Below are positions 14,041-43,018 of a stretch of 64,000 nucleotides of DNA, piece after piece (position 1 is the first letter of the stretch; each line of letters begins with the position of its first letter). A program made the position numbers and the translations under genes. The notes beneath the pieces were generated by a model that ran no database searches, was not told where the DNA came from, and saw only the letters and a list, made by a program, of their open reading frames with translations. This stretch comes from a virus: positions 1-64,000 of IMG/VR virus record IMGVR_UViG_3300042924_003217. One strand, given 5' to 3'.

Positions 14041-14284
14041 GATTCGGTGGGGTTGATCGGATTTGTGCGGTGGACGTTTTCCAGTTTATCGCAAGGAACC
14101 CGTAGCAGCAAATGTTATAATCGACATCATTTGCGTCTTTCTCGCTTTTAACGGGTACGTTGATGTCTAAGTGTTTGCAGACGTACTCCTGATTGTCGTT
14201 TTCAAAGACCCGCCACACGTGATCAACCGACCCGCGACCGGGAAGGCCACGGGTCTTGTTGAAGCGTATGGCGTACTTGTTCAC
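14000..14284 (-). CDS. Conserved phage protein (94 aa)
   Basis: YAIRFNKTRGLPGRGSVDHVWRVF, then YVCKHLDINVPVKSEKD followed by a Cys-Cys-Tyr-Gly strand: a recurrent phage family without known role, commonly next to the basic protein that follows here. The 3' end overlaps the next gene by 41 bases; the 5' ATGA overlaps the tail-chaperone gene. Confidence 0.75.
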   Translation of the reverse strand: MNKYAIRFNKTRGLPGRGSVDHVWRVFENDNQEYVCKHLDINVPVKSEKDANDVDYNICCYGFLAINWKTSTAQIRSTPPNHERQETPLQPAPS

Positions 14285-14667
14285 TCAGGCTTCTGCGGCC
14301 AGACGGGGTCCGTAGGGAAGCTGGGTTGCAGGCGGATCTCACGCAGCACGCGCCGGTACTCGATCCACGCTGCTTTATCCCCAGACGACATCGGCACGTC
14401 AGGCAACATGGACCAATCAGACTCCGCAAGGAGGCGCTTTGCGCGATCCCACACCAGTTCAGCAGGCGTGGACGGTGTCGGCAACGCAGGACCATCACCC
14501 ACTTCGAACCAGCCGAGGTCCGTGTACGGCTCGCCCAGCCAACTCAGGTCATTGAGTCGGTCGGCAAAACCAGAGAGCCCGAAAATCGGACCCCAGTTTT
14601 CAGGCAGCGGTTGCGGCTCGCTTAATACGGTGCCGTCTTTGCGGTTTTTGAGTTGCCACAGTTTCAT
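14281..14667 (-). CDS. Phage tail assembly chaperone-like protein (APC type)
   Basis: 128 aa from ATG 14667 with AAAGGA four bases before it. The C-terminal 60 residues (RAKRLLAESDWSMLPDVP, WIEYRRVLREIRLQP.FPTDPVWPQKP) match the Phage_tail_APC pattern, found at the end of tail-fibre accessory proteins. The N-terminal part (LSEPQPLPENWGPIFGL) is typical too. A second copy of this domain lies at 18810-19277. Likely role: fibre folding or assembly. Overlaps the next gene upstream by 68 bases. Confidence 0.7.
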   Translation of the reverse strand: MKLWQLKNRKDGTVLSEPQPLPENWGPIFGLSGFADRLNDLSWLGEPYTDLGWFEVGDGPALPTPSTPAELVWDRAKRLLAESDWSMLPDVPMSSGDKAAWIEYRRVLREIRLQPSFPTDPVWPQKPE

Positions 14668-15118
14668 TGGAATCCTTTGGGGGTGGTAGGGCTAGTCCGG
14701 GTTGTTGATCAGGAGGCGGCAGCACTTGGCCTTTCGACTGGTGCGGTGCCATATCGTTAGAGTGCGGCGGATGACCGACGCCGGGAAGCGATTGCACGCC
14801 GCGATAGTGCGCTAGTTCCTCTGGCGTGTACTTCCAGTCGCGCCAGCTTGCAAAGTCACGACGCGGCAGCATCTGCAAGTGACAGCCGATCTGTGCGGAA
14901 AGCTGGTGAATCAGCTCAACCACTTCGACTGGTTGCAGGATGATGAAAGTGTTGCTGCCGTCAGCACGGCGCATCGCGACCTCAATCGTGCCACCACCGC
15001 ACGTCCCGACCGTGATCGAGCGTGCGCGATTCAGTCCTTCGCTGACGCCGTTTAGATGCGTGCGCAGCGTAGCCTCATCGATCTTCTTCTGAATGGCTTT
15101 TTTTACTGCGGGTTCCAT
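14600..15118 (-). CDS. Hypothetical virion-region protein (172 aa)
   Basis: Starts at ATG 15118, overlapping the end of the glycine-rich fibre gene by 16 bases. The N-terminal domain (EGLNRARSITVGTCGGGTIEVAMRRADG..TFIILQPVEVVELIHQL) looks folded. After residue 120 the protein becomes Pro/Gln-rich and disordered and ends in a basic tail (RRHRIKRAATAA). No family recognised. Confidence 0.65.
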   Translation of the reverse strand: MEPAVKKAIQKKIDEATLRTHLNGVSEGLNRARSITVGTCGGGTIEVAMRRADGSNTFIILQPVEVVELIHQLSAQIGCHLQMLPRRDFASWRDWKYTPEELAHYRGVQSLPGVGHPPHSNDMAPHQSKGQVLPPPDQQPGLALPPPKDSNETVATQKPQRRHRIKRAATAA

Positions 15119-16128
15119 GACACGTTCACAAATCCGCCGCCGCCTTGAATTGTGATTGGATAGCTTGTGCCGCCTGTTACTGGGACGCAGTTGTAGACTG
15201 TGGCTGCTGGTGCTGCGCTGCCTGCATTGCCGGGATTGGCGGGATTGCCTGCGTTGCCGCGCCCGCCACCACCGCCGCCACCACCACCAATTCCAAGATT
15301 TCCGCATCCGGCCCCACCACCACCGCCTGCGCCTGCCCTTCCGGTGCCTCCTCCACCGCTATTGCCGGGAGCATTTGATCCAGAATTTCCTCCTGTACCG
15401 CCTCCGTTACTTCCACCGGCCCCACCTAAACCCGGAGTTCCTATAATGTTAGTACCGCCCGGAGAACCAGAATTGCACGTTCCAGCACCACCACCCCCTC
15501 CACCGCCTTTTTGGCAATATGATTGACCGAAACCGCCGTCTCCGCCTCCGGGAACTCCTCCGTTTCCGCCACAGCCTCTTGATTGATAACAAGCAACTGG
15601 TCCGCCTTGATAATAATTACCTCTGGTTCCTTTTTGCCCGTAAGCGCCACCAGTTCCTCCGTTTCCAGCAGTTCCTCCATTTCCACCTAATCCGCCAGAA
15701 AAAGTGTAATTAAATGCACTTGAGTTTCTGGTTGTACCCGCGCTTCCAGTACTGCCAGTTCCTCCACTGTACCCTGTTTGCCCATTGTTCCCGTCGCATC
15801 TCAAGCCACCGGTTCCACCAATTGCTCCTAAAGTATTGTTTCCTCCATTACCTCCGCTTGTACTAGGAAAACAATTACATGAGCAGTAGTAACAACAAGT
15901 AAAATACCATTTTTTGACACCGCCGCCACCTCCGCCACCTGCCCCGCCCCCACAGCCTCCCGGATTTCCGGGATTTCCGGGATTTCCAGTGCCACCACGA
16001 CCAACAACGGTTACTTTACTAACGCCAACCGGAGCAGTAAAAGTCCCGCTTGTGTTGTAGGTCGTAGAACCTCCCGGCACAAGCGCCTTACCTCCGAACA
16101 AGTTAACTTTAGGTGTTCCAGCGGGCAT
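15103..16128 (-). CDS. Glycine-rich tail fibre/adhesin
   Basis: 341 aa. A short N-terminus ends in the cue FTAPVGVSKVTVVGRGG, typical of glycine-rich phage fibre domains, followed by about 280 residues of Gly/Asn/Thr runs that could form polyglycine-II helix bundles, as in phage adhesin tips. A Cys-rich hydrophobic insert (YFTCCYYCSCNCF, about residues 73-85) is unusual. The end TIQGGGGFVNVSWNPQ is a standard terminus of the family. The ATG at 16128 is used because an upstream ATG lies inside the preceding gene. Probable receptor-binding tip. Confidence 0.75.
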   Translation of the reverse strand: MPAGTPKVNLFGGKALVPGGSTTYNTSGTFTAPVGVSKVTVVGRGGTGNPGNPGNPGGCGGGAGGGGGGGVKKWYFTCCYYCSCNCFPSTSGGNGGNNTLGAIGGTGGLRCDGNNGQTGYSGGTGSTGSAGTTRNSSAFNYTFSGGLGGNGGTAGNGGTGGAYGQKGTRGNYYQGGPVACYQSRGCGGNGGVPGGGDGGFGQSYCQKGGGGGGGAGTCNSGSPGGTNIIGTPGLGGAGGSNGGGTGGNSGSNAPGNSGGGGTGRAGAGGGGGAGCGNLGIGGGGGGGGGRGNAGNPANPGNAGSAAPAATVYNCVPVTGGTSYPITIQGGGGFVNVSWNPQ

Positions 16129-16133
16129 GATGT

Positions 16134-16730
16134 TTACTCGTAGTAGAACCAACCGGTGACGATGTATTTGCTGCGCTGACCAAAAACCGTGTTGCCGCGA
16201 TGCGCGTGCGTGAACGCAGCAGGCCAGATCAGCATCAAATTCTCCTGCGGCTTAATGCGGCACTGCTGATACAAGAACTCTGTTTCGCCAGCCTCCTCCG
16301 GTTCAAGCGTGTTCAGATAGACCATGTACGCCAGCACGCGAGCCGAGTGCGCTCCGTTGCCCTGTTCGCCGTGCCAGACGTGATAGCCACCACCCGGATC
16401 AGTGCGCTGCATCTTCATCGCAGTGCCGGTGATCTTGTCGTTCTTCAGGATCGAGTACTGCTCGGCGTAGATGTCGTAACACTTTTGAAGACCGGCAAAG
16501 AACAGGTCCGTTGCATTCTTGCCCTCAAACGCTGCGACGTTGTGAACGCCGAAGTTCAGGCCAAGCTGCATATCGTTCTTGCGATGCTTGGCTGCGCCTT
16601 CGCTCTGCTGCCGGTTGCTGCCCGCTCCAGATTGCACCAGACGCTCAAACTCGCTGATCAGGTGCTTGCAGTAGCCCTCTGGGTAGAGGTCATGAAAGCT
16701 GCCAATGAAGTCTTTGAATTCGGCTCTCAT
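16134..16730 (-). CDS. 2OG-Fe(II) dioxygenase, prolyl-hydroxylase-like
   Basis: 198 aa from ATG 16730 (ATGA overlap with the upstream stop). Metal-site candidates are H120-x-E122 in YHVWHGEQ and H175/H177 in FTHAHRG, with K188 in SKYIVTGWF binding 2-oxoglutarate. It uses HxE rather than the usual HxD. Such enzymes hydroxylate peptidyl prolines or other residues. It lies between fibre genes and directly follows a second oxygenase, so a virion-protein substrate is plausible but inferred. Confidence 0.75.
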   Translation of the reverse strand: MRAEFKDFIGSFHDLYPEGYCKHLISEFERLVQSGAGSNRQQSEGAAKHRKNDMQLGLNFGVHNVAAFEGKNATDLFFAGLQKCYDIYAEQYSILKNDKITGTAMKMQRTDPGGGYHVWHGEQGNGAHSARVLAYMVYLNTLEPEEAGETEFLYQQCRIKPQENLMLIWPAAFTHAHRGNTVFGQRSKYIVTGWFYYE

Positions 16731-17308
16731 CGAAATGCGGGTCCGCTGACCCAAGAAACAAGGGATTGACGACTGCCGCTCGTTACTGGCGTGACTTGGT
16801 GAAGAACGTAGGACGGGAAAGCCGCAATGAGGCCGCGCTGCTTGCGCACGTTCATTGCTTCGCCACCCGTCATCACCTGCAAGTTGCCGCCATCGTACTC
16901 GCTCGGATCGGTAAGCTGCACCACCAGACTCAGCTTGCGGCTGATCTTGGCGTTGTAGTCCTGATGCCAGCCGTAGGTTCCGGCGTCCGAGCCGTCGTAG
17001 TTCGTTAGCTGCAACTGCTCGCCAAAGCCAGTCAGATCAAAGCGGAAGTGCTGCGCGTTCAATGACGACGCAACGTGCGCGAGCTTCTCGAAAATCCACG
17101 CCGTGTCTTGCGTCTTGCCGAGCCACGAAACATTTGATCGACGCACCTTGCGCAGTGACTCCTCATCCTTGGCTCCGCCAATCTGCGCCTGCGTGTCGGC
17201 GTTCTTGGCCTGCTCTTGCAGCCAGTTTAGCTCCTTCTCGGAGAACGCGCCTTCCCACCAAGCGTATGGCTCAATGTTGGCGGCGTAAGGTGTTAGCAGA
17301 TGATGCAT
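16727..17308 (-). CDS. 2OG-Fe(II) dioxygenase, PKHD-type
   Basis: 193 aa from ATG 17308. Clear jelly-roll motifs: H115-x-D117 in YGWHQDYN, DGGNLQV, H170 in SYVLHQVTP and R180 in SGSRQSLVSW, which together bind iron and 2-oxoglutarate. The layout matches PKHD-type hydroxylases known from bacteria and cyanophages, whose substrates are mostly unknown. It overlaps both neighbouring oxygenase genes, indicating a coupled operon of three. Confidence 0.85.
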   Translation of the reverse strand: MHHLLTPYAANIEPYAWWEGAFSEKELNWLQEQAKNADTQAQIGGAKDEESLRKVRRSNVSWLGKTQDTAWIFEKLAHVASSLNAQHFRFDLTGFGEQLQLTNYDGSDAGTYGWHQDYNAKISRKLSLVVQLTDPSEYDGGNLQVMTGGEAMNVRKQRGLIAAFPSYVLHQVTPVTSGSRQSLVSWVSGPAFR

Positions 17309-17886
17309 GAACGGTCTTTGTGCGACACCATGAAGTGTACGCACCGCGTGGGGGTTTCAGATTGATTTGGGAAAAGCTGATGCTGAAGCCATGAATTGCC
17401 GAAGAATACCGACCCCGGCTTAACGTTGTTGAAGTGAATGGCTCGCGTTGCGTTGCTTACTTCTTCGGTCTGCTCGAAATCAAGCTCGACCATGGCTTTG
17501 TTGATGCGCGTATCGTGATAAACGGGATAAGAGCCGCCTTCTGGTGTTTCTAGGAAGAACCATCCGCATACTTGGGTGTTGCGATGAACGTGTACATCGG
17601 TTCCGCCGCCACGGTTCAGTTCTTGCGCCCAAAATCCTGACAGATGGAAGTCGTACTTTTCCGTGCTGTACCCTTGGTCCCGCAAGAACCCGACCGCCGA
17701 CAGGAGCAGGTAGTCCGACAATTCCCGCAGGGCCGATTCTTGTCCGAGGTGGATTGTTTGACTGATGGGGCGGTTGGGTTGACGCACTTCTTCCAAACGC
17801 CTGAGGCACGTGCCCAACACTTTCCCCACCAGATCGGGACGTTCATCGCGATAGATGATTACCGGGAAATACGCGAAGCCTTCCAT
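17293..17886 (-). CDS. Putative 2OG-Fe(II) oxygenase (PF13759-like)
   Basis: 197 aa. WAQELNRGGGTDVHVHRN with H99/H101, a GWFFLETPEGGSYPVYHD strand pair, then NSWLQHQL with H169 and R181 match the phage-common putative oxygenase family whose signature is H.H...SG.yYl.P.G. It is first of three coupled oxygenase genes. Unlike the second, it has HxH rather than HxD, so its activity is less certain. Confidence 0.75.
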   Translation of the reverse strand: MEGFAYFPVIIYRDERPDLVGKVLGTCLRRLEEVRQPNRPISQTIHLGQESALRELSDYLLLSAVGFLRDQGYSTEKYDFHLSGFWAQELNRGGGTDVHVHRNTQVCGWFFLETPEGGSYPVYHDTRINKAMVELDFEQTEEVSNATRAIHFNNVKPGSVFFGNSWLQHQLFPNQSETPTRCVHFMVSHKDRSCIIC

Positions 17887-18104
17887 TAGGAAGCGACGTA
17901 GTTCGTCAGAGTATCAGCAAACGCAGTGATCTGTTGCGCGGTCACGTCACGGGAATCCACCGGCTTGCTGCGGGCGTTCTCGATGAGAACCTCCTTGGCA
18001 AGGCGAACGGCTTCCAACTTGGCACGTTTGGCCTCAAGGGCCAGTTGGTTAGCGTGCCGAGCGGCTTCAAGGTCAATCTGGAGTTGTGCGGGATCGATGG
18101 CCAT
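17886..18104 (-). CDS. Small helical protein (72 aa)
   Basis: Ala/Arg/Lys-rich helix (QIDLEAARHANQLALEAKRAKLEAVRLAKEVL) followed by a short C-terminal helix. Probably a coiled coil. Its stop abuts the oxygenase start (shared base at 17886). It could be a small fibre accessory; function unknown. Confidence 0.6.
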   Translation of the reverse strand: MAIDPAQLQIDLEAARHANQLALEAKRAKLEAVRLAKEVLIENARSKPVDSRDVTAQQITAFADTLTNYVAS

Positions 18105-18116
18105 AGTTGTTAGGGG

Positions 18117-18803
18117 TTAAGCTTTAACGTCTTTCATTGAAATATTGCCGTACCATGTAGTGCCACCATCTGGCGTAAAGAACACCCAGATGTCAACCGC
18201 ACTTGCGGTGGTGGTGCGCGAAAGGGAAGCCGCGCCGCCGGGAAAGCGAAACGCGCCACCGGACCACGCCACAGTGCGTCCAGCCGTGCCGTCATTGGTC
18301 AAAATGAGCGTAAACGAGGATGCGCCAGAGGCTACAGGGTAGCGAAGCGTAAAGGTGCAGTTGCCCGTAAGGGTTGCCGTAAAGACGCCACCACTGGTCA
18401 CGTCAATGTTGATAGCGGTGCCGGTATTGCCAAGTGCCGTGACCGTGTCCGCAAACCCAGTCACTTTAAGATAGCTTCCGGTTGTTACCGCAGCCGAGAT
18501 AGCAGCAAGCGAGCTAGTACTTGGTGCCGCACCCGCACCGCCACCCACCACAATCTGATTGGCCGTTAGTGCGCCAGACGATGCAATGGTGGTCGCGCCG
18601 GAAAAGTAGGGCAAGCCGCCGGACGCACCCGTAGCAATGCCCAAACCGCCATTGCCGACCGGCAAAGTGCCCGTAACGCTCGTTGTGAGCGAGACATTGG
18701 TGATGGTATTGCTCGCACCGCTGATCGTCTTATTCGTCAGCGTAGCGGCATTGCTCGCAGTAAGGATGTTACTGGGCGTGATGGTAGCGGAAAGTGTTGC
18801 CAT
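18117..18803 (-). CDS. Tail fibre/structural protein
   Basis: 228 aa, Thr/Ser/Gly/Ala-rich and beta-repetitive. It contains TLTNKTISGASNTI, a motif repeated in the C-terminal part of the 878-aa collagen-like protein ([14 protein letters not shown]), and a C-terminal beta domain (FTLILTNDGTAGRTVAWSG, then a DGGTTWYG turn). These features are typical of phage fibre or appendage proteins. Confidence 0.65.
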   Translation of the reverse strand: MATLSATITPSNILTASNAATLTNKTISGASNTITNVSLTTSVTGTLPVGNGGLGIATGASGGLPYFSGATTIASSGALTANQIVVGGGAGAAPSTSSLAAISAAVTTGSYLKVTGFADTVTALGNTGTAINIDVTSGGVFTATLTGNCTFTLRYPVASGASSFTLILTNDGTAGRTVAWSGGAFRFPGGAASLSRTTTASAVDIWVFFTPDGGTTWYGNISMKDVKA

Positions 18804-21309: not shown

Positions 21310-23946
21310 TTAAGCGAAGCGGGTTTGCGACGCGAAGACCGAGTAGGTCGGCGTAGCGGCTGTCTTGACGATGGTGTAGACGTAGGCGTCCACGCTACTT
21401 GCGTTGCCCGCGCTGGGGGCCGTGCCGCCCTGCCAACGTGTCGTCACACCAACAGTCGTGCCGTCAACCTGCACGGACGTGTTGTAGAATGCCGCAGCAC
21501 CGTTCGTAACAAGGAACGCAGCGGTGACGCTTTGGCCAACAGCAAGAGCCGTGTTGAGCGTTGTTCCCGCTGAGGCTCGAAAGTTGACGACAAAGTTGCC
21601 AGAAGCGTTGCTGGTGTAAAACAGCACCGATTGCGTGGTGATATCGTAAGCGATGGTGCCGGTGGCTGCGGTAGCGGACACTGTCACGATCTCGGCAGCA
21701 TCGTTCAAAACCAAGGCCAGTGCGCTGCTTGAGCCGCTGAGGGTCTGTGTAGCAGTAAACGTGTTGGCAACACCGGTTCCAGCCACACCGGTTAACGTGT
21801 TGTTTGAGTAAGCAATGGTCTTGTTGGTGAGCGTTTGAACGCCGTTTAGCGTTACCGCATCACCGCCACCGCCACCGATCTGAGCATAAACTTCCCACGT
21901 TGTGCCGTCATAGACAAACTGCACGCTGACGCCGCTAATGTCGCAGATAAGATCCTGAGCAAGGTTGCTGATGGTGGATCCGTTGCGGCCAACGGTCAGG
22001 TTGTTTGTGCCCCATGCGGCACCAGCATCCGCCACGACCACAAGGTCGCCAACAGACGGGGTTGCGGGCAGGGTTACCGTGAATGCTCCGCCAGAAGTGT
22101 CTGCTAGAACGCCTTCCTTATTAACAGCCGTATAGTTAGCAGTCTTGTAGACGTAGTTGGCTACGTTGCCTTGTGCTCCGGTTGCTCCGGTTACGCCAGC
22201 AGGCCCAGTTGCGCCAGTCACGCCAATCGGTCCGGTGGGGCCAGCAACCCCCGTTGCGCCCGTGGGACCAGTCGCGCCGTCAACGCCAGCCACGCCAGTG
22301 GCACCGGTAGGCCCAGTGACGCCCGTAGCTCCATTGACGCCAGCAACACCTGTTGCGCCTGTGGGCCCTGTTGGGCCATCGACACCCGCAACACCAGTAG
22401 CTCCGGTTGGGCCTGTGGGACCGTCAACGCCAGCTACGCCGGTAGCACCTGTCGGACCAGTTACTCCAGTAGCGCCAGTCGGACCAGTGACACCTGTGGC
22501 GCCTTGCGGGCCGGTAGCACCCGTGGCGCCAATCGGTCCAGTCGGGCCATCAATACCGGTTGGGCCTGTCGGACCTGTTGCGCCATCAATGCCAGCTACA
22601 CCCGTGGCACCAGCAGGCCCAATTGCGCCCGTAGCACCAGTCGGACCGTCCACGCCAGTCGCTCCAGTCAATCCTGTTGCGCCGGTGGGGCCAGTTACGC
22701 CCTGCGGACCCGTCGGACCCTGAATACCAGTAGCGCCTGTTGGGCCACTAGCTCCAGCTTGCGTGTACGTCACCTGCATGACCGTGATAATCACGGACGG
22801 AACAGCAGGCGCAGGCGAAGTTGCGTTGTTAGCCTCAAGGACAATGTTCACATTGTCCACGGACCACATGATCTCGATGTTGTCTCCACCAACAACGCTG
22901 TTCAGCAGGAAGTCCCAAGCAGCAACCTGCAAGGTATTGCTGGCAATGTTGATCCGGGTTGCGGAGTCAGGGATATCAACACCGTTCTTGCGAAACCAAA
23001 TTTGGATGGTTTCGCCCGTGCCGCCACCGCTACGGTGGTTCAACTGAGCCGAGAACTGGATGTCGTATGCGCCGGGGTTGACAAACGTGATCTGCGAGCC
23101 ACCAACCACGGTAACACCGCTGGAATAAGCGACGCTGGGCGCGGTCATCGCGTAAGCGGTGTTCGGGAGTGCCGCGATTTGATCAACCGTGCTGTAGAAG
23201 GAACCGTAGTGGGCAATCGCACCACCCGGACCAGCGGGACCCGTTACGCCTTGCGGGCCAGTCGCGCCAACCGCACCGGTGGCACCCGTAGCACCAATTC
23301 CTGTTGCTCCAGTTGCTCCGATGTCGCCTTGCAAGCCTGTAGCGCCTGTCGGCCCGGTAACGCCAAGTCCGGTTGCTCCAACAGGACCCTGCACGCCAGT
23401 CGCACCAGTAGGTCCGGTAACGCCAGTGACGCCAAGACCCGTAGCGCCAGTGAGACCAGTTGCCCCTGTTGGTCCCGCAACACCAGTAGCACCAATACCA
23501 GTTGCACCACTAAGACCAGTAGCGCCCTGCGGACCTTGGACTCCAGTTGCTCCGGTAGGGCCGGTAACGCCAGTTACTCCAAGCCCAGTCGCGCCGCTAA
23601 GTCCTGTAGCTCCGGTTGGACCTTGAACGCCAGTCGGACCCGTTGCGCCAAGCGGACCAGTAGCACCGAGAGAGCCCGTTGCGCCTGTGGGGCCTTCGAT
23701 ACCTGTAGCGCCTCGATATCCTTGCACGCCGGTTGCGCCGATAACGCCGGTTGCACCCGTAAGACCAGTTGCTCCGGTCGGACCTTGGATACCCGTCGCA
23801 CCAGCGCCTTGCGGGCCGGTCGCACCCTGTGCACCGGTTGGCCCCTGCACGCCAGTAGCACCTGTAGGCCCAATCAGGTCAGGGAACAGAACGTCAAAGT
23901 TGGGAGGCGTACACCAATTAGGCGTTGAACACGGGTTGCACGACAT
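21310..23946 (-). CDS. Large collagen-like fibre with C1q/TNF-like middle domain
   Basis: 878 aa. After a Cys-rich start ([13 protein letters not shown]), Gly-X-Y repeats run from about residue 26 to 240 and again from about 396 to 594, dominated by GPTGATG, so Thr often fills the third position. Between them is a beta-rich domain ([16 protein letters not shown]..., [24 protein letters not shown]) resembling C1q/TNF-like trimer domains. The C-terminal 280 residues hold fibre-type repeats. Expected to be a long trimeric virion fibre and a candidate substrate for the adjacent hydroxylases. Confidence 0.85.
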
Positions 23947-25797: not shown

Positions 25798-25828
25798 GGG
25801 GCTCACTCGAAAGGGTGAGCCCTTTTTT
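25798..25828 (+). terminator. Strong terminator after the capsid gene
   Basis: GGGCTCAC (25798-25805) pairs with GTGAGCCC (25815-25822), followed by six T (25823-25828). A second perfect hairpin, TCGTCTA-GT-TAGACGA (25777-25792), lies just before it and may stabilise the mRNA 3' end. It separates the capsid unit from the convergent glycosyltransferase gene, whose stop is inside the T-run. Confidence 0.9.
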
Positions 25829-26759
25829 ATGTCACCAGCTTGACCCAACTGGGCACAAAATTGTGCCAGTCGTAAGCCCTTGCGCGTTCGTGTATCTCCC
25901 AGCACTTGTCCTGATAGGCCAGCGGGTTGTCCCGGTAGAACTTCAGGAGCCTGATGGTCTCGCGCATGAACTCCGTCTCGTCTTTTGACACCGCGATGCC
26001 GCCATGCGAGCCAATGCGGTCCATCCAATGCCCGACTGCCGTGCCGATCACCAATCGCCCTGCCGCGCCAGCCTCAAGTGCTGGCATACCGGCACCCTCT
26101 TCAAGGGACGGAATGATCACGCAGTCCACGTTGCGGTAGTAGGTCGGCATGCCCATGTACGACGTGTGGTACGTACTGGCGGCTGAGAACTTCAATCCTG
26201 CCTCCTTGGCGGCTTCCTCTGCGAGGTAGCTACGCTTGCTGAATCGCGGCTCAAGCTCCTGCCCCGGTGTTGGTTGCGCGGAGTCCTGACGGCTCATGAA
26301 TACGCCCCCGTAACCTACGGTCTTCAGTGACAAGGACGGATCGGCTCGGAAACGGTCTACATTGATCCCTACGGGTACGTTTTTGAGCACCCTTGGCACA
26401 TCGATTTCCCACGCTTTTTCGCACAAGAACTGGCTGACTGCTGCGGTCCTCTTGAACCGCATGAACTCGTCGTGCGGGATCTTGGTCTTCATCTTGTGCA
26501 GATCGACCACCGCATGGGCCACTAAGGCCACTTTTTCTGGCCTGTTTATGCCGTAGCTCTTCAGGGCGTCCCAGCCTTGCGGTAGGGTAACCCAGAGATC
26601 CGTATTGGCGTCCAGTTCCTGAATCTCAAGCGAGTTGTAGACGCGATGCCAAGGCAGCACCTGAGCGTCAATGTCAGCCATCCAGAGATGCTTGCAAAGC
26701 TCGTAATGAATGGACCCCAGCGCCCATTCATAGTCCACGAAGAAGATTACCTTGCGCAT
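25827..26759 (-). CDS. Glycosyltransferase (GT-B, family 4-like)
   Basis: 310 aa. The C-terminal half has the donor-binding pattern of GT4 enzymes: VDCVIIPSLEEGAGMPALEAGAAGRLVIGTAVG, including the E.G.G.P.LEA signature for nucleotide-sugar binding. The N-terminus begins MRKVIFFVDYEWALGSIHYEL. It is paralogous to the gene at 62972-63877 (shared VGINVDRFRADP..LKTVGYGG). Coupled through TGATG to the next glycosyltransferase. Substrate unknown; it lies beside the capsid gene. Confidence 0.8.
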   Translation of the reverse strand: MRKVIFFVDYEWALGSIHYELCKHLWMADIDAQVLPWHRVYNSLEIQELDANTDLWVTLPQGWDALKSYGINRPEKVALVAHAVVDLHKMKTKIPHDEFMRFKRTAAVSQFLCEKAWEIDVPRVLKNVPVGINVDRFRADPSLSLKTVGYGGVFMSRQDSAQPTPGQELEPRFSKRSYLAEEAAKEAGLKFSAASTYHTSYMGMPTYYRNVDCVIIPSLEEGAGMPALEAGAAGRLVIGTAVGHWMDRIGSHGGIAVSKDETEFMRETIRLLKFYRDNPLAYQDKCWEIHERARAYDWHNFVPSWVKLVT

Positions 26760-27943
26760 CAGTTTGGCAAGTGGACGATGTGACCCTTCCGGTGATACCA
26801 GCCACTCCCCTGTGGGTCGTCTGCGGGCCTGCGAAGGTCGGCAATCTGTGCAAAGATGGCGTCAAAGCGTTTTGCGCAGGTTTCCATCGAATAGAGGTTC
26901 CTAGCCCTTGTTGCGGTGGCTTCGCGGCTTATAGCGCCCGCGTTGACCATTTCTATGGCTTCCAGATAGTCTCCGAGGGTGTTGCAGCGGTAACCGGTCC
27001 AGCCGTGGTCGATGGTTTCCGCAAAACAGCCGAAATTGGAGGCAATCAGCGGTGTGCCGCAAAGCTGGCCCTCGACCCCGGCTCCACCGAAGGGCTCAAT
27101 GTAGCGGGTTGGCATCAAAAGCGCCTTGGCGTTGCCAACAAGGTCAGAACGAGCCTTACCGGTTACCGGACCAATGTACTTGAGACGCGGGTGCTTCCAC
27201 GGGTCCAAAGAACCCTGTCCCGCCACCCAAATCTCCTCGTCAATGGCCTCAGCGATGGCTTTGACGACATCCAGACCCTTTTCGGGACAGATTCGACCGT
27301 AGTAGAGCAGGTACTTGCCGGGATTCGGCTGATAGTCCCAGTCATCAAGGTCAAAGTAGTTCGGGACGATCCAGTTGTACTCCTTGCCGCCCGACCCCTG
27401 CACCGGAAGGTGATCCGAGCCGAAGCAAAGCCGCCCGTTGCCGTCAAAATGGAGCGTCTTGCCGTAGTGATAGTGCATCCATGCGTAGCTTTCGAAGATG
27501 CGGAAAGCTCCAAAGTCGGGATCCGGGTATCCGATGCCGGTTTCGACGTGGTAGACGTTCGGGAACATCTTCACCAAGTCCATGTGGGCGCGACCAAACG
27601 GGTGACACACGATGTCGCCGTCCTTCAGGTACTTCGGTAGCGCGGCTTTCAGGCGCTTGTCGAACTCAGTCCACTGCTTGGATCCCAAAACCGCTGTATT
27701 GCCGTGGAAAGCCGTCTTCTGGTGGCGTCCTGTTGCCGCCATAAGCTCTTGCTCGGTCAGCATCTGCACCTTGGTCTCTGCTGCGGATTCCGACGTTCCG
27801 TTGTGGTACTCGATACACGGGTAACCAAGCGGCTGCATCATTTTCGGGATGCGGAACGCTTTCTGGGTGAACGCGCAGTGATGGTAGTCACTGTTCGGAA
27901 TCGTGTGAAACAGTCCCAGTACGTGCAGCGTTGGTTTGCTCAT
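26759..27943 (-). CDS. Glycosyltransferase (GT-B, family 4)
   Basis: 394 aa. LLYYGRICPEKGLDVVKAIAEA is the classic GT4 donor-domain motif, followed by EIWVAGQGSLD and LLMPTRYIEPFGGAGVEGQLCGTPLIAS, with E.FG...VE binding the nucleotide sugar. N-terminal acceptor domain complete. Second of two adjacent glycosyltransferases. Confidence 0.85.
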   Translation of the reverse strand: MSKPTLHVLGLFHTIPNSDYHHCAFTQKAFRIPKMMQPLGYPCIEYHNGTSESAAETKVQMLTEQELMAATGRHQKTAFHGNTAVLGSKQWTEFDKRLKAALPKYLKDGDIVCHPFGRAHMDLVKMFPNVYHVETGIGYPDPDFGAFRIFESYAWMHYHYGKTLHFDGNGRLCFGSDHLPVQGSGGKEYNWIVPNYFDLDDWDYQPNPGKYLLYYGRICPEKGLDVVKAIAEAIDEEIWVAGQGSLDPWKHPRLKYIGPVTGKARSDLVGNAKALLMPTRYIEPFGGAGVEGQLCGTPLIASNFGCFAETIDHGWTGYRCNTLGDYLEAIEMVNAGAISREATATRARNLYSMETCAKRFDAIFAQIADLRRPADDPQGSGWYHRKGHIVHLPN

Positions 27944-39585: not shown

Positions 39586-42039
<2,454 letters not shown>

Positions 42040-42088: not shown

Positions 42089-42976
42089 TTACGGCTCCTG
42101 AATCCAATAGGCCACGATGTTGCTTTCCGTCGTGCCGTAGGAGTAAATCGTCAGGATTGCGGTCTTAAATGCGCCCATGCTGCCCGGAGCGCCAAAGCCG
42201 AGCCAAACCCAAGGCCCCGGCCAGCTAAGCGCACGGTTGCTGGCATCGCACACCACGCGCAGGTACAAAACCTGACCAGCCGTGATGTTGGTCATCTCGA
42301 TGTAGGCGTCGTCCGAGATGTTCAAAGTTTGCATGGAACCAGCGGACATGTCCACGCTGCTGATCGGGAAGCCCCAAGTAGCGCCGGTAGGTGTGCTGAT
42401 AAACCGCTTTGAGCCAACGGAATTGGCTGCGCGGAAATCCGGTTGGATGCTGATCGTGTTAACGCCAAGAATGTTGAGGGCAGTAACGCCGTTTGCTGTG
42501 CCTACAATGGTCGTTCCCGGTCCAGTGGCACCCGTAGCACCCTGTGCGCCTGTCGGCCCCGTAGGGCCGCCCGCAGGGCCAGTTGGACCCTGAACGCCAG
42601 TCGGGCCTTGAATGCCGGTGGCGCCAATAGGGCCTTGATCGCCTGTGGGACCTGTAGGACCTACAATGCCAGTAGCCCCTGTGGGGCCGTGTGGTCCGCT
42701 TGCGCCGACGGATCCTGTTGCGCCGGGAGCCCCCTGAATGCCTTGAATGCCGCTCGCGCCTGTTGCGCCAACTCCGGTAGCCCCGGCAGGGCCGGTCGGG
42801 CCAGTCGGACCAACAATGCCTGTCGCTCCCGTAGGGCCAGTCTGTCCAGTAGGCCCACCACCCGGACCCGTGGGGCCAACCGGTCCCGTCGCCCCGGTCA
42901 TGCCCTCAACCCCCTTGAAAAGGTACGCAACGGTCGGGGGGATCATGCAACTGTTAGTGCTCGACATGCATGCCAT
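42089..42976 (-). CDS. Collagen-like fibre (295 aa)
   Basis: Starts at ATG 42976 ([10 protein letters not shown]) or 42967. Gly-X-Y repeats run from about 25 to 155 ([35 protein letters not shown]), followed by a 140-residue beta domain ([31 protein letters not shown], then [18 protein letters not shown]). Fourth collagen-like virion protein of the genome. Confidence 0.8.
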
Positions 42977-43018
42977 GATAGACTTTACCGAAGGCTGACG
43001 CAACTCTATTACTTACAG

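Follow-up and report, generated by a model that had tools for sequence, protein, structure and literature searches.

A cassette of three 2OG-Fe(II) oxygenase genes is linked to a gene for a glycine-rich adhesin-like protein in a viral tail module

On which molecule do three different 2OG-Fe(II) oxygenases act when a virus encodes them side by side among its tail genes? We addressed this question in a 64,000-nucleotide stretch of DNA (positions 1 to 64,000 of IMG/VR record IMGVR_UViG_3300042924_003217; hereafter the window), in which the three genes, called C, B, and A, have the following surroundings.

18117..18803, minus strand: tail fibre protein (PHROG tail fibre matches), the C-terminal domain of which precedes the cassette in 57 of 64 relatives
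17886..18104, minus strand: sm72, small open reading frame of 72 amino acids with stop codon TAA (from the list of open reading frames; same place in 58 of 64 relatives)
17293..17886, minus strand: C, 2OG-Fe(II) oxygenase of PF13759 type, 197 amino acids (Pfam 44.2 bits; phrog_81)
16727..17308, minus strand: B, 2OG-Fe(II) oxygenase, PKHD/PiuC-like, 193 amino acids from ATG (Pfam PF13640, 52.1 bits; phrog_61)
16134..16730, minus strand: A, 2OG-Fe(II) oxygenase, prolyl-4-hydroxylase-like, 198 amino acids from ATG (Pfam PF13640, 43.3 bits; phrog_61)
15103..16128, minus strand: GLY, Gly-rich adhesin-like protein of 341 amino acids, the proposed substrate (linkage counts, AF2, and Foldseek)
14600..15118, minus strand: short gene after GLY, NRARSITVGT... 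family (list of open reading frames; same place in the relatives inspected)
14281..14667, minus strand: tail fibre assembly chaperone, Phage_tail_APC (Pfam PF16778, 48.6 bits; 61 of 64 relatives)

When the ATG starts at 17886 (C), 17308 (B), and 16730 (A) were taken, C and B overlapped by 16 bases and B and A by 4 bases. The TAA stop of sm72, a frame with no match in Pfam or PHROGs, shares one base with the ATG of C, and GLY starts 5 bases past the stop of A, so that members of the series sm72-C-B-A-GLY overlap or lie a few bases apart. The coupled operon described in the first-pass annotation, and its location among fibre genes rather than replication genes, were thus confirmed by the open reading frames on the minus strand. 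Promoter and terminator signals showed no excess over shuffled sequences. All three proteins exceeded the Pfam cut-off of their models (27 bits) and belong to the 2OG-Fe(II) oxygenase superfamily; as had been proposed, they represent different subfamilies, with A and B of PF13640 type and C of PF13759 type. In a phmmer search of the PDB, B matched 3dkq (E 6e-8) and also PiuC (9ghl), and its score against NCBIfam PRK05467 was 63 bits, below the equivalog cut-off of 143 bits. The profile of A gave a weak match (E 0.001) to the prolyl 4-hydroxylase of Chlorella virus PBCV-1 (5c5t), and the motif GGGYHxWHxE...H...K of A is retained in a marine-virus homologue and in the S-PM2 homologue. Recent duplication as the origin of the trio, already doubted in the annotation, was rejected: pairwise comparison revealed no recognisable relatedness (BLASTP E 0.17 for A-B and 0.35 for C-B; hhalign probability 2.8% for A-C), despite the shared phrog_61 match of A and B.

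We then compared the residues around the iron site. Numbered from the ATG, these are H99-x-H101...H169...R181 in C, H115-x-D117...H170...R180 in B, and H120-x-E122...H175...K188 in A, in agreement with the HxH, HxD, and HxE motifs reported before. Among 65 non-redundant cassettes from related viruses, at least 97% retain the ligand residues (H99, H101, and H169 of C and all four residues given for B and for A). The facial triad HxD/E...H is therefore present in B (HxD/H) and A (HxE/H) at this level of conservation, and C has three histidines and no acid (HxH/H). The HVH of C aligned in a profile match with HIH in 3bvc and 2rg4, two PF13759-like proteins of known structure, and HxH also occurs in the C homologues of pelagiphages, indicating that it is a trait of the family. 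A textbook triad with Arg had been ascribed to one enzyme only. This holds for B (HxD/H/R), in which the Arg is invariant, and can be refined for the other two: position 181 of C is Arg in 49, Lys in 15, and Gln in 1 of the 65 cassettes, and A carries an invariant Lys, a feature shared with prolyl-4-hydroxylases. Each enzyme therefore has a candidate 2OG-binding residue.

C, the only enzyme modelled, was predicted by AF2 with a pLDDT of 86.9, and Foldseek returned 437 PDB matches at E≤0.001. The best were 3bvc and 2rg4, followed by 2OG oxygenases (KanJ, prolyl hydroxylases, and phytanoyl-CoA hydroxylase), and the model has the double-stranded beta-helix fold. Pairwise dN/dS values of the enzymes were mostly 0.03-0.1, indicating purifying selection. 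Together with the conserved ligands, this selection suggests that all three enzymes probably bind metal. The comparison gave no sign that two of the three lack a metal site: candidate ligands are conserved in every member, and the modelled C folds as a 2OG oxygenase.

Relatives were taken from viral contigs, which yielded 122 loci with C, B, and A all present in that order; of these, 65 were not near-identical. A DNA-level search of annotated phages returned no close relatives. The recurrence of this order in 122 loci (65 non-redundant), combined with low dN/dS, indicates that the arrangement is more than chance. Neighbourhoods were counted over 64 relatives. GLY was located downstream of A in 63 of these 64 non-redundant cassettes, either directly (spacing of -39 to +33 bases; -175 in one locus with an extended open frame) or with one extra gene between (about 480-590 bases; 1118 in one locus). 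In the reverse search, the first 49 residues of GLY served as the query, and 59 loci with at least 2.6 kb upstream were counted. A and B were found upstream of GLY in all 59 and all three genes within the distance limit in 56; the exceptions were L161, a third tandem copy of GLY, and L186 and L188, in which C is located elsewhere. The linkage is therefore nearly absolute in both directions. It indicates a shared function, not in itself an enzyme-substrate relation.

Additional genes were observed at individual loci. One cassette is followed by a tandem array of three GLY paralogues (L120:10412-14100), and a fibre of 2307 residues with SGYSG repeats is encoded upstream of this cassette. A further PF13640 oxygenase lies just beyond the chaperone gene at L094:13060-13647; some relatives therefore have five oxygenase-like genes in the region. 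Tryptophan-halogenase genes (PF04820) were present near A/B homologues of other phages (L207:8115-9611, 343 bits; L005:12564-13664, 92 bits), in L005 directly after B.

The extra gene between A and GLY, D, occurs in about 40% of relatives. Changes in D and GLY were scored on a tree of C+B+A, on which the presence of D changes at least 14 times. Of 10 independent pairs with good support, 9-10 showed a change in the N- and C-terminal type of GLY along with D, and the reverse was almost never seen (median sign test p 0.002-0.004). This co-exchange supports a coupling of D to the GLY subtype. D and GLY are adjacent, and one recombination could therefore move both. Comparison of amino-acid composition between GLY proteins with and without D revealed no clear residue pointing to a D target.

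We also characterized the GLY family, whose members have 270-470 residues and ~33% Gly (mostly 30-39%). In an alignment of 40 GLY proteins, the N- and C-termini were conserved and the Gly-rich core was hypervariable, the layout of gp38-type adhesins. The dN/dS of GLY was ~0.2, compared with 0.03-0.1 for the enzymes, and its identity was much lower than theirs. The AF2 model (pLDDT 86.9) was nearly free of helix with little strand, and Gly recurred at lag 3 with a frequency of 0.596 against a mean Gly content of 0.40. Foldseek matched the model to four PDB chains only, all from the Bxb1 tail tip (9d93) or the Pam3 fibre (7yfw/7ypx), with E values of 0.014-2.5 and low TM-scores that are not significant singly; the best BFVD match was a Gly-rich domain protein of P-SSM2 (E 2e-5). 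A profile search against PDB chains gave no sequence match, and the gp38 structure 6F45 was absent from the Foldseek PDB matches. Both 9D93 and 7YFW contain polyproline/polyglycine-II bundles, and those of Bxb1 have been likened to S16 gp38 (PMC13243192). The Foldseek matches and these published bundles together support, but do not prove, that GLY is a polyglycine-II adhesin. As it has neither sequence homology nor significant structural homology to gp38, we class GLY as working like gp38, not as its homologue.

The position of Pro in GLY is biased. The GLY of this phage contains GNPGNPG repeats, NPG is present in all 63 GLY proteins, and the cores contain 416 GxPG and 95 GPxG sites, compared with means of 244 and 239, respectively, after shuffling. 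The site classically recognised by prolyl-4-hydroxylases is X-Pro-Gly. S16 gp38 has three GxPG sites and no adjacent oxygenase; the Pro-Gly bias may therefore be purely structural and is weakened as proof of hydroxylation.

We propose, with a probability of roughly 0.6, that C, B, and A, joined by D where it is present, form a maturation cassette that hydroxylates the polyglycine-II adhesin GLY encoded downstream. The enzymes, which include D in about 40% of relatives, would be translated in step with GLY and would use Fe(II), O2, and 2-oxoglutarate to hydroxylate one or more residue types in the Gly-rich polyglycine-II core, during or after translation and before GLY becomes part of the tail. 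Of the possible single targets, the likeliest would be Pro in Gly-X-Pro-Gly turns (GNPGNPG), modified by the prolyl-4-hydroxylase-like A, and the effect might be a stiffening or tuning of receptor binding. We infer GLY as the substrate, hydroxylation as the reaction, the residues modified, the division of labour among the enzymes, and the effect on receptor binding. Action of the trio on more than one site is plausible, of which the hydroxylation relay raised in the first-pass annotation would be a candidate form.

The linkage and the D/GLY co-exchange are explained equally well if the enzymes act on the host surface, be it a glycan, a lipid, or a receptor, or on a metabolite that can diffuse, and are exchanged with the adhesin as a host-range or superinfection-exclusion module. 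The halogenase genes near A/B homologues in other phages fit this explanation, and tailoring of capsule or secondary metabolites has been proposed for a cyanophage cluster of halogenase and 2OG genes (PMC7824862). We nevertheless consider it unlikely: translation of the trio is tightly coupled to that of a structural gene, the families of A and B point to hydroxylases of peptide or protein type, the enzymes stay constant while GLY diversifies, and the GLY-adjacent loci inspected carry tail genes, not other envelope-biosynthesis genes.

The first-pass annotation had named collagen-like (GPT)n/(GAT)n fibres as the substrate. Three such genes are present in this phage.

21310-23946 (window): collagen-like fibre gene
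39586-42039 (window): collagen-like fibre gene
42089-43003 (window): collagen-like fibre gene

One of the three is joined to a pectate-lyase-like domain, and one lies 3.4 kb upstream of the cassette in the same fibre region. Two GT1-type glycosyltransferase genes (25827-26759 and 26759-27943 of the window) were also observed upstream of a collagen-like fibre gene; their products could glycosylate Thr or hydroxylated residues of the fibre. In the literature searched, a single remark connects viral prolyl 4-hydroxylase with collagen in viral tail fibres (PMC9301287). However, collagen-like genes occurred near only 14 of 64 cassettes, compared with 63 of 64 (and 59 of 59 in the reverse search) for GLY, and Pro in these fibres occupies the X position (GPT), with Thr, Ala, or Gln at Y, whereas Pro in GLY is mainly in X-Pro-Gly. 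On these two grounds, we rejected the fibres as the main partner and regard their hydroxylation by the trio as improbable. Dozens of related viruses retain the pairing with GLY, which looks like the host-recognition tip of the phage, and the trio therefore probably modifies this putative tip instead.

Published proposals for phage 2OG genes concern DNA repair (PMC2984593, PMC9146016), a partnership with ferrochelatase as auxiliary metabolic genes (AMGs) of haem or iron handling (PMC9599517), and modulation of host 2-oxoglutarate; in addition, only three functional categories were reported as enriched in seasonal viruses, and two of them are phrog61 and phrog2954, there treated as AMGs (PMC11561400). 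For the present genes, we judge a role in auxiliary metabolism, DNA repair, or iron/haem handling to be more improbable still, as they lie within a tail module and are coupled to GLY. The ferrochelatase label itself is carried by D, which belongs to phrog_2954 and has homologues in HTVC023P (gp67) and HTVC033P (gp58). D matched no ferrochelatase family in Pfam or NCBIfam, the name being carried by PHROGs only. It has the invariant pattern H99xD101...H151 and scored 24.4 bits (E 3.9e-5) against PF13532 (2OG-FeII_Oxy_2), below the cut-off of 31.2, and larger proteins of other phages fuse a D-like part to a PF13640 domain. The "ferrochelatases" at L002:12611-13228, L003:12582-13223, and L132:11210-11794 (phrog_2954, phrog_3531) likewise resemble 2OG oxygenases; this label underlies the published haem/iron readings. 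That the proteins are now non-enzymatic chaperones or structural parts in adhesin assembly, as the fibre assembly chaperones in the same operon and the constant GLY linkage might suggest, is very improbable given ligands at least 97% conserved in 65 cassettes and in three subfamilies.

The pairing of oxygenases with a Gly-rich protein recurs independently in pelagiphages. In the HTVC023P and HTVC033P clusters, published as auxiliary metabolic or iron genes, homologues of B, C, and D stand in tandem beside a PF21722 (Gly_rich_2) protein (HTVC023P gp70 and HTVC033P gp62), as in the cassette described here; unlike in the latter, the order is B-C-D, A is mostly missing, and in the HTVC033P type the oxygenases come after, not before, the Gly-rich gene. 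Of 63 loci in HTVC033P-type contigs, 57 had the oxygenase block immediately beside a gene for a Gly-rich protein, compared with 30.6±3.5 for random blocks, although the contigs were not de-duplicated and 57/63 therefore overstates their independence. None of 2000 random placements reached the observed value. Only this whole-block test was significant; a distance test with D alone was not, and the Pro bias was weaker in the Gly-rich proteins of pelagiphages. Distant D homologues were adjacent to Gly-rich genes in 6 of 19 cases (5.8 expected), no excess over random, and the A homologue of S-PM2 lies behind a short tail fibre gene whose product is not rich in Gly. The link is therefore not universal for these families. 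Tentatively, and with somewhat less than even confidence, we suggest a swappable "hydroxylation code", in which three to five oxygenases would accompany each subtype of host-recognition adhesin as a set specific to it, and many abundant "2OG AMGs" and "ferrochelatases" of marine phages would be adhesin-maturation enzymes rather than metabolic ones.

Few genes of marine phages recur as often as those for 2OG oxygenases or are so poorly understood. If such genes mature tail adhesins, as proposed here for GLY, they would serve host recognition instead of host metabolism, phage receptor binding would gain a post-translational layer made by enzymes, and folding of the adhesin would be tied to the O2, iron, and 2-oxoglutarate of the host. 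The proposal can be tested directly, as two pelagiphages in culture, HTVC023P and HTVC033P, have this arrangement.

Finally, we compared the module with known systems. GLY shares Gly-rich motifs, hypervariable segments between them, and conserved ends with the T-even gp38 adhesins of S16 (6F45) and PP01 (PMC6851490, PMC13243192), and the polyglycine-II bundle proteins of Bxb1 and Pam3 are those whose structures it matched in Foldseek. Unlike all of these, GLY is richer in Pro (8 per 100 residues in Gly-rich parts versus 2-6). No annotated oxygenase was found next to the polyglycine-II adhesin in S16, T2, or Bxb1; the genes that come after gp38 in S16 and T2 are holin genes. B has the HxD...H...R of the PKHD-type hydroxylases PiuC/YbiX (3dkq, 9ghl), but only the catalytic half aligns. 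A aligns by profile with the PBCV-1 prolyl 4-hydroxylase, likewise a virus-encoded 2OG enzyme, for which work cited in PMC9301287 (Eriksson 1999) gives peptide substrates and evidence of 4-hydroxyproline in viral proteins. The similarity is weak (E 0.001), A has HxE instead of HxD, and, unlike the PBCV-1 enzyme, A belongs to a set of three to five enzymes whose genes are linked to that of a Gly-rich tail protein. In the literature searched, which covered few subscription journals, no coupling of phage 2OG genes to a Gly-rich adhesin was found. The kinds of enzyme are thus already known, and what is new is their assembly with an adhesin gene into a fixed multi-oxygenase module.
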